Made by a program: the position numbers and the translations under genes
Notes under the pieces: generated by a model
What the model saw: the letters and a program-made list of their open reading frames with translations, nothing else
Database searches by the model: none
What the model was told of the DNA's origin: nothing
Assembly (NCBI GenBank): GCA_904419005.1
Contig: CAJFQI010000002.1
Coordinates: 17,593 to 81,592 of the forward strand
DNA length: 64,000 bases
Direction: 5' to 3'
Origin: Candidatus Avimonas faecium
Lineage (GTDB): Bacteria > Bacillota > Clostridia > Oscillospirales > Acutalibacteraceae
Shown: piece by piece, positions 16,001 to 17,800 of the stretch
Position numbering within the stretch: position 1 is the first letter of the stretch
Layout: each line of letters begins with the position of its first letter

Positions 16001-16032
16001 GAAGGGCGGGAGGGTTAACCCTCCCGCCCTTC
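16001..16032 (-). terminator. Perfect 14-bp palindromic hairpin at the 3' end of aroF (possible terminator)
   Basis: GAAGGGCGGGAGGG-TTAA-CCCTCCCGCCCTTC; no clear T-run on either strand; loop contains the aroF stop codon. Confidence 0.5.
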
Positions 16033-17025
16033 AAGCGTGAGCTGCGCTTTGACCTTGCCCATGACCCCGTCGAACTGGGCGGGGGTGAGGGACTGTGCCC
16101 CGTCGCAGAGAGCGGCCTTGGGGTTATTATGCACCTCAATCATCAAGCCGTCCGCTCCGGCCGCGACCGCCGCCTTGGACAGGGGCTCCACCAGCCAGGG
16201 GATGCCCGCCGCGTGGCTGGGATCAACGATCACCGGCAGGTGGGAATGGTGCTTGAGCAGCGGTACGGCGGAGATATCCAGTGTGTTGCGGGTGGCGGTC
16301 TCAAATGTGCGGATGCCTCGCTCGCACAGGATAACCTGCTCGTTGCCCCCGGCCAGGATGTATTCCGCGCTCATCAGGAATTCCTCCATCGTGTTGGCCA
16401 GGCCCCGCTTGAGAAGCACCGGCTTGCCGCAGTGCCCCAGCGCTTTGAGCATTTCAAAATTCTGCATGTTGCGCGCCCCCACCTGGATCACGTCCACGTC
16501 CCGGAACAGGCCGAGATGGGAGAGATCCATGATCTCGGAGACGATGGGAAGGCCGGTTTCCTGCTTGGCCAGCAGCAGCAACTCCAGCCCTTCGGCGTGG
16601 AGACCCTGGAAGGCGTAGGGGGAGGTGCGGGGCTTGAACGCGCCGCCCCGCAGCAGCTTGGCGCCGCTCGCCTTGACCGCTTTGGCCACAGCGACGATCT
16701 GCTCCTCGGTTTCCACCGAGCAGGGGCCGGCGATCACGCTGAAATGCGGGCCGCCGAATTGCGCGTCCCCTACGGCGACGACGGTGTCGTCCGGATGGAA
16801 TTTCCGGTTGGCCGCCTTGTACGGTTCGGATACCCGTTTGACATCCTCCACGATGTCGTTGGCCCGCACCGATTCCAGGTTTACGCGGGAGGTGTCGCCC
16901 ACCAGCCCTACAATGGTGGTGTGCTCGCCGTCGCTGCGGTGGCAGGTCAGGCCCTGGGCCTCCAGGCCGTGCAGCAGGCCCTCCACCTTCTGCTCGTCCG
17001 CGTTTTGCTTTAGGATGATAATCAT
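16015..17025 (-). CDS. aroF: 3-deoxy-7-phosphoheptulonate (DAHP) synthase
   Basis: N-terminal ferredoxin-like domain then FSVIAGPCSVETEEQI, RGGAFKPRTSPYAFQGL, DPSHAAG. Confidence 0.95.
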   Translation of the reverse strand: MIIILKQNADEQKVEGLLHGLEAQGLTCHRSDGEHTTIVGLVGDTSRVNLESVRANDIVEDVKRVSEPYKAANRKFHPDDTVVAVGDAQFGGPHFSVIAGPCSVETEEQIVAVAKAVKASGAKLLRGGAFKPRTSPYAFQGLHAEGLELLLLAKQETGLPIVSEIMDLSHLGLFRDVDVIQVGARNMQNFEMLKALGHCGKPVLLKRGLANTMEEFLMSAEYILAGGNEQVILCERGIRTFETATRNTLDISAVPLLKHHSHLPVIVDPSHAAGIPWLVEPLSKAAVAAGADGLMIEVHNNPKAALCDGAQSLTPAQFDGVMGKVKAQLTLEGREG

Positions 17026-17048
17026 ACCGGTTCCTCCTGTTTGTTTAG

Positions 17049-17092
17049 AAAATAAAAACGCCGGCAGGCTCTGTCGTGCAGAACCCGCCGGC
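17049..17092 (-). terminator. Intrinsic terminator in the aroF leader (putative attenuator)
   Basis: Reverse strand GCCGGCGGGTTCT-GCACGAC-AGAGCCTGCCGGC then GTTTTTATTTT, just upstream of the aroF Shine-Dalgarno. Confidence 0.88.
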
Positions 17093-17106
17093 TTTGAAAG
17101 CGTGTT

Positions 17107-17223
17107 TCAAAGGCGCCGCCATGGGACGGCCCGGGGACAGCACAAACAGCCCGAACGAATGCCGTTCAGGATCGCATAGCGGTAATATCGGGTGGTTTGG
17201 GCCGCTGCCGGGATATGTGCCAT
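17107..17223 (-). CDS. Putative 38-aa leader peptide upstream of DAHP synthase
   Basis: MAHIPAAAQTTRYYRYAILNGIRSGCLCCPRAVPWRRL*; AGGAGG 8 nt before ATG; lies between promoter and terminator. Confidence 0.7.
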   Translation of the reverse strand: MAHIPAAAQTTRYYRYAILNGIRSGCLCCPRAVPWRRL

Positions 17224-17256
17224 CGCCGTTTCCTCCTTTTGTGTTTGCTGCTTTAA

Positions 17257-17285
17257 AGTGTAACAGCATTTCCCGGCCTTGTCAA
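17257..17285 (-). promoter_or_regulatory. Promoter for aroF leader
   Basis: Reverse strand TTGACA (17285-17280), 17-nt spacer, TACACT (17262-17257). Confidence 0.82.
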
Positions 17286-17478
17286 GTGGAAGAGGGGATA
17301 GGAGGGGGATGTTTTTCGTCGGCTTGTGCCGGCGTGCGGATGCTGCCTTCCGTATTTCGGGGGCTGTCGGTTCCCATGGGAACCGGCGCAGGGACGGGCA
17401 ATTCCAGGCAAATTGTCCGGAGGATTCCTGCCCGAACATGAGGAAATAGACAAAAGCAAAAATTTTGGCTTTTCCTCC

Positions 17479-17507
17479 TTGCATTTTTACAGCGGTTGTG
17501 CTATCAT
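17479..17507 (+). promoter_or_regulatory. Promoter for rpmE
   Basis: TTGCAT, 17-nt spacer, TATCAT. Confidence 0.55.
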
Positions 17508-17550
17508 TCTACTGTTAATGCTTGGCCTTCCTGAAAGAGGTGACAATACC

Positions 17551-17760
17551 ATGAAAGAGAATATTCATCCGAAGTATGAAAAGGCGACCATCACCTGCGC
17601 ATGCGGCGAGGTGATTGAGACCCGCTCCACGAAGGGCAACCTCCGCGTGGAAATCTGCTCGAAATGCCACCCGTTCTTTACCGGCAAGCAGAAGCTGGTC
17701 GATACCGGCGGACGCGTTGACCGCTTCAAGAAGCGCTTTGGCATGAAAGACGAGAAATAA
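17551..17760 (+). CDS. rpmE: 50S ribosomal protein L31
   Basis: [64 protein letters not shown], zinc-binding (C+) form. Confidence 0.97.
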
Positions 17761-17774
17761 GCAGCGGCTTTATC

Positions 17775-17800
17775 GGGCAGCGCGCAGGCGCTGCCCTTTC
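17775..17800 (+). terminator. Terminator after rpmE
   Basis: GGGCAGCG-cgcagg-CGCTGCCC then TTTC. Confidence 0.7.

Follow-up and report, generated by a model that had tools for sequence, protein, structure and literature searches.

Organization of the region upstream of aroF

The window, by which we mean the whole stretch of 64,000 nucleotides analysed here, carries on its minus strand the gene aroF for DAHP synthase, whose product matches PF00793 and PF18152, also NF006421, with the ferredoxin-like domain at the N-terminal side. The elements preceding this gene are listed in Table 1. A scan of positions 16500-17800 gives TTGACA-17-TACACT (17285-17257) as the sole promoter-like site. On the whole, the description given by the sequence-only reading is in accordance with our results: the promoter, the AGGAGG, the 38-codon ORF and the ribosome-binding site of aroF are all present by sequence and scan, the cluster Tyr-Tyr-Arg-Tyr is confirmed, and the 8-bp hairpin overlapping the leader stop codon is found as described. 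The terminator is likewise present, with a stem not of 13 bp as first counted but of 14 pairs including G-U, a 5-nt loop and GTTTTTATTTT after the stem, its U-rich tail ending near 17048. The neighbouring upstream ORF (17326-17760, plus strand), the C-terminal part of which resembles ribosomal protein L31, is divergent from aroF; the terminator therefore cannot end an upstream minus-strand gene, and belongs to the 5' UTR of aroF.

Three Tyr in four codons is unique among the 288 small ORFs (12-60 aa) of the window preceded by a Shine-Dalgarno (SD) sequence. However, no more than three codons in ten are aromatic in this leader, which is weak taken alone, and among shuffled upstream regions of 400 nt about 25% contain at least three aromatic residues in ten codons. 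As this is common by chance, the significance of the leader rests on conservation, position and structure, and the ORF alone proves nothing. The single Trp codon of the leader is far downstream of the sensor cluster, inside hairpin P3.

Table 1. Features of the leader and aroF in the window, in order of transcription
Feature	Position	Strand	Description
Whole leader-aroF arrangement	17285-17026	minus	promoter, SD, ORF, hairpin, terminator, SD, then aroF
Promoter TTGACA-17-TACACT	17257..17285	-	TTGACA 17285-17280, 17-nt spacer, TACACT 17262-17257; TG precedes the -10
Shine-Dalgarno AGGAGG of the leader ORF	17232..17237	-	by sequence; eight bases upstream of the ORF
Leader peptide ORF	17107..17223	-	ATG, 38 codons, TGA 17109-17107 (MAHIPAAAQTTRYYRYAILNGIRSGCLCCPRAVPWRRL); homologues in G008, G004
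Segment 1 (putative protector strand)	17188..17212	-	pairs with 17154-17130 in the predicted full-leader fold; exact pairing not strictly conserved in all relatives
Sensor codons Tyr-Tyr-Arg-Tyr	17176..17187	-	TAT TAC CGC TAT; Tyr-Phe-Arg-Tyr-Ala-Phe in G008
Hairpin P2	17150..17170	-	CCTGAACG/CGTTCGGG; separates the sensor codons from segment 2
Segment 2 (antiterminator strand)	17131..17149	-	CTGTTTGTGCTGTCCCCGG; by folding and pairing tests
Hairpin P3	17115..17130	-	GCCGTC/GGCGGC; predicted inner arm of the antiterminator junction
8-bp hairpin with leader stop codon	17092..17112	-	CTTTGAAA/TTTCAAAG; predicted inner arm of the antiterminator junction
Segment 3	17071..17092	-	GCCGGCGGGTTCTGCACGACAG; terminator 5' arm, loop and first 3'-arm bases; identical in four species; its part 17091-17071 is the predicted partner of segment 2
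Intrinsic terminator (3:4)	17048..17092	-	14-pair stem 17092-17060 and GTTTTTATTTTC
Shine-Dalgarno AGGAGG of aroF	17033..17038	-	by sequence
aroF, DAHP synthase (3-deoxy-7-phosphoheptulonate synthase)	16015..17025	-	ATG at 17025; regulatory ferredoxin-like domain

The leader in related species

A leader before aroF copy 1 was found in three further species of the genus (G008, G004 and G009; the genome of the window is G000), and none was detected there in the eight other members, one of which is unreadable because its contig ends at the gene. SD and ORF are retained in G008 and G004. The former has the leader TTRYFRYAFLNETRSGCLCCPRSAVWRRL, in which Tyr and Ile are replaced by Phe, giving RYFRYAF, and the latter has TTRYYRYAILNGSRSGCSCCPRIA, in which RYYRY is kept and an earlier stop, TAG, precedes the position of the window's Trp codon. 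The aligned sensor region thus reads TTRYYRYAI in G000 and G004 and TTRYFRYAF in G008, with the aromatic codons either kept or swapped for other aromatics in these two relatives. The conservation that the sequence-only reading proposed to check holds for G008 and G004 and fails for G009 (leader L032), where the aromatic codons (TRCSRRAALNG) and the antiterminator are both gone, the terminator is kept and the leader of aroF copy 2 is intact. The 5' arm and loop of the terminator (GCCGGCGGGTTCTGCACGACAG) are identical in all four species. The 3' arm differs at three sites without loss of pairing, a pattern that would be expected if the 5' arm also had to pair elsewhere.

Alternative folds of the leader RNA

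The sequence-only reading had proposed an attenuator and found no antiterminator. Our analysis supports the attenuator and locates the predicted antiterminator as a three-way junction, in which 17149-17131 pairs with 17091-17071, spanning most of the terminator 5' arm and the loop. Here CTGT-TGTGC and CCCCGG of the first strand are paired with CCGG-GGG and GCACGACAG of the second, and the junction encloses P3 (17130-17115) and the 8-bp hairpin (17112-17092). To represent the stalled state, the leader was folded without the stretch covered by a ribosome on the Tyr codons and without everything 5' to that ribosome, and ending short of the terminator 3' arm; in this state G000, G008 and G004 share this one junction. 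The pairing of segments 2 and 3 (2:3) is 0.82-0.84 in these three genomes and 0.00 in G009, and since the latter is also without the Tyr codons, sensor and switch have been lost together there. In the window the antiterminator fold has -44.2 kcal/mol with a z of -2.94 (0 of 200 shuffles as good), and over the four species 95% of cells pair. The pairs are mostly invariant, and covariation is neither for nor against them. For the window alone, the 2:3 pairing is no better than that obtained when its GC-rich segment 2 is shuffled (p = 0.34).

The full leader folds into a long 1:2 hairpin hiding segment 2, plus the terminator, with a z of -2.75. This protector pairing is the weakest part of the model: it is present in the window fold and clear across the family, and differs among the four close species. 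Covariation in the flanks of the 1:2 helix is weak (p = 0.009) with an uncertain register, and for the free leader of G008 folding would still favour the antiterminator. As for the 8-bp hairpin, it is best explained, on the folding model, as part of the antiterminator junction. The stop codon is inside it, and a ribosome located there would, by usual footprint sizes, cover both P3 and the hairpin, which would give the hairpin a purpose.

These results bear on one alternative, namely that a chance ORF happens to precede a constitutive terminator and that aroF is expressed by read-through. The high chance frequency of three aromatics in ten codons agrees with it, as does the leader being absent or degenerate in much of the genus; however, the replacement of aromatic by aromatic residues, the antiterminator fold common to three species, the invariant terminator 5' arm, the co-loss in G009 and the homologous architecture elsewhere all argue against it, and we regard it as very improbable.

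Aromatic leaders before aroF in Clostridia

Aromatic-rich leaders, then terminators, precede aroF in many Clostridia, the one class covered by our wider search. Among 189 non-redundant clostridial aroF upstream regions, 113 contain a small ORF that follows an SD and has five or more F/Y/W within ten codons; the corresponding rate is 2.2% in shuffles and 1.6% in reverse complements. Within the subset of whole genomes, such a leader is present in at least one member of 33 of the 42 sampled families. A leader peptide on a clostridial DAHP synthase, which the sequence-only reading thought unusual, is therefore present in about 60% of the sampled aroF upstream regions. Complementarity was tested in 46 leaders from across Clostridia. 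The segment that follows the aromatic codons matches both the 5' arm plus loop of the terminator (2:3, Fisher p ~5e-21) and the ORF start (1:2, p ~2e-17); the 1:3 control gives no significant signal (p = 0.74). The leaders' own pairings beat swapped ones, with a composition effect in these swap tests (reversed and shuffled controls have z of -4 to -5 against the observed -12), for which reason shuffle tests were added.

That the attenuator might be driven by a protein or small ligand, the ORF being incidental, is in line with the RNA segments being more conserved than the peptide (the segment-2 motif is found past the stop codon in five leaders) and with G009 keeping its terminator without Tyr codons. 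Against this stand the aromatic codon enrichment in the 33 families compared with the shuffled rate given above, the conserved SD and start codon, and the Rfam covariance models, which give no T-box (RF00230), riboswitch or other family match at the locus; we thus consider such an attenuator improbable.

A translated leader that senses aromatic amino acid supply is preferred here, and the question is then how specific it is. Most leaders in the family mix F and Y codons, G008 has RYFRYAF, and the leader of the second DAHP synthase in the same genome contains F, Y and W, all of which would fit sensing of several aromatics (Phe/Tyr/Trp) and not of tyrosine specifically. In the window, however, the sensor cluster has Tyr only, and the lone Trp codon is far downstream in P3, beyond the point where the ORF of G004 has already stopped. 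We therefore hold sensing of several aromatics to be rather unlikely for this leader.

The motif TTTTGCTGY recurs in the family, often read as Phe-Cys-Cys, and is located after the stop codon in L062, L131, L138, L139 and L151, showing that it is conserved as RNA, that is, as segment 2. Cysteine or arginine sensing, to which the CLCC, the several Arg codons and the recurrence of Cys-Cys in many leaders might point, is hardly credible, since the Cys-coding motif is this RNA segment, outside the ORF in several leaders, and aroF makes aromatic precursors; Cys-Cys was rejected as a sensor on the same ground. As a separate observation, CGA is the codon of the Arg that precedes the first aromatic residue in ten leaders (L043, L044, L047, L051, L052, L067, L081, L094, L096 and L098) and in the window, in the contexts CGATTT, CGATAT and CGATAC, perhaps as part of segment 1.

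A predicted tyrosine-sensing attenuator

Overall, the results lead us to predict, with a probability of roughly 0.8, that the aroF leader is a ribosome-mediated transcription attenuator of the trp/phe type sensing the supply of charged tRNA-Tyr. Computation gives the individual parts and the extent to which close relatives keep them, the alternative folds that are conserved, and the 1:2 and 2:3 complementarity found throughout the family; what we infer is that the ribosome stalls, for which amino acid it does so, how the terminating ribosome acts, and that aroF is regulated in this way in the cell. RNA polymerase would transcribe the leader with a ribosome simultaneously translating the 38-codon peptide. 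With ample Tyr-tRNA the ribosome would reach the stop codon inside the 8-bp hairpin, breaking both inner hairpins of the antiterminator; after its departure the upstream segment 1 could hold segment 2, and segment 3, being free, would pair with segment 4, so that transcription stops short of aroF. Under a shortage of Tyr-tRNA, the ribosome would stall at 17187-17176 and mask segment 1, whereupon 17149-17131 would pair with 17091-17071 ahead of the synthesis of the terminator 3' arm, and transcription would continue into aroF.

The attenuators of the enterobacterial trp, phe and his operons (Trp_leader, Phe_leader and His_leader in Rfam) are of the leader-peptide type. Like them, the predicted aroF attenuator has cognate leader codons and a biosynthetic target, and its putative protector, antiterminator and terminator would exclude one another. 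Unlike them, it is found in the class Clostridia and targets DAHP synthase, its sensor codons are located between segments 1 and 2, and the stop codon is inside the three-way junction that forms its predicted antiterminator. The Phe, Trp, His, Leu and Thr leader families of Rfam have no match at gathering score, and comparison of eight leaders with NCBIfam and of five with Pfam gives no known peptide family.

Several earlier reports concern the same pathway. In Corynebacterium glutamicum, aroF has a candidate Phe-Tyr-Phe leader peptide (PMC4046766), likewise an aromatic leader on a DAHP synthase gene, actinobacterial and likened here by description only. The uORFC-13-1 motif, known from Acholeplasma and environmental sequences only, has a uORF with Phe codons and a terminator before aroF (PMC8632094); compared by description, it shares the gene target and senses Phe if anything. 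A five-genome study including Clostridium novyi presents in its Fig. 6b two candidate Phe/Tyr uORFs on shikimate genes (PMC6429828), and these, as far as that figure goes, may be an earlier sighting of the clostridial aroF leader family. For E. coli aroF-tyrA, an attenuator sensing Tyr-tRNA was hypothesized (Camakaris 1980, as cited in PMC2659441), also at an aroF, however in a different phylum and gene family. According to a 2010 survey, amino-acid leader peptides had been demonstrated in Proteobacteria and Actinobacteria only, until the survey added its hisS case in bacilli (PMC2965389). The mechanism is thus already known, and aromatic uORFs on the pathway have been glimpsed before; as far as the non-subscription literature shows, what is new is the Tyr-biased example, its predicted antiterminator and the extent of such leaders within Clostridia.

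Clostridia are usually thought to sense amino-acid shortage by tRNA-binding T-box switches. A T-box (RF00230) also senses aminoacylation and controls transcription termination, whereas the aroF leader would do so by a ribosome on a peptide ORF. The contrast with T-boxes made by the sequence-only reading is partly justified: 11 T-box matches are found in the genome, and leader peptides are still common before clostridial aroF. One of the 11 is located upstream of tyrS (L165, G000:C83:6144-6380), so that two kinds of aminoacylation sensor would coexist in one genome. The aroF leader is a concrete candidate for a tyrosine-sensing attenuator with a resolved predicted antiterminator, and leader-peptide attenuation, long described for Proteobacteria and Actinobacteria, would be common before the committed step of aromatic synthesis in Clostridia, in genomes that have T-boxes too. 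The choice between T-box and leader peptide can thereby be tested for each gene separately, and a large number of small ORFs that lack annotation in gut bacteria would be marked as regulators.

The second DAHP synthase and the promoter palindrome

The second DAHP synthase of the same genome (G000:C5:52764-53747; L043) is preceded by an F/Y/W-rich leader, MATLSRKTQQNRFTGVFSFGHYFGWGYFCCADRAVRQPA. Leaders of this NRF type precede copy 2 in all 11 genus members with a readable upstream region. Tests for a common origin of the copy-1 and copy-2 leaders gave p from 0.004 to 0.36, which is suggestive only. The terminator loops of L043 and of the window both contain TGCACGA. We tentatively propose, at somewhat less than even odds, that leader-peptide attenuation is the dominant and perhaps ancestral control of DAHP synthase in Clostridia, and that the copies in this genus have separate sensors: copy 2 a leader for Phe/Tyr/Trp, and copy 1, in four species, a Tyr-biased leader of more recent origin. 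If true, such separate sensors would split feedback between the isozymes at the level of transcription.

In addition, a palindrome, TTACACTTTAAAGTGTAA, is located at 17263-17251 (minus strand), overlapping the -10 of aroF copy 1, and is also present in L037, L248 and L052. Its half-conserved form holding the -10, TTACACTTTAAAG, is seen at the aroF promoter of relatives as well. In all, 10 of the 12 genus genomes contain it, for the most part at DAHP synthase genes and even at those without a leader, and the reversed-pattern control has no matches. Judged from its sequence and position, this palindrome is a candidate repressor operator, which might add a second layer of control.
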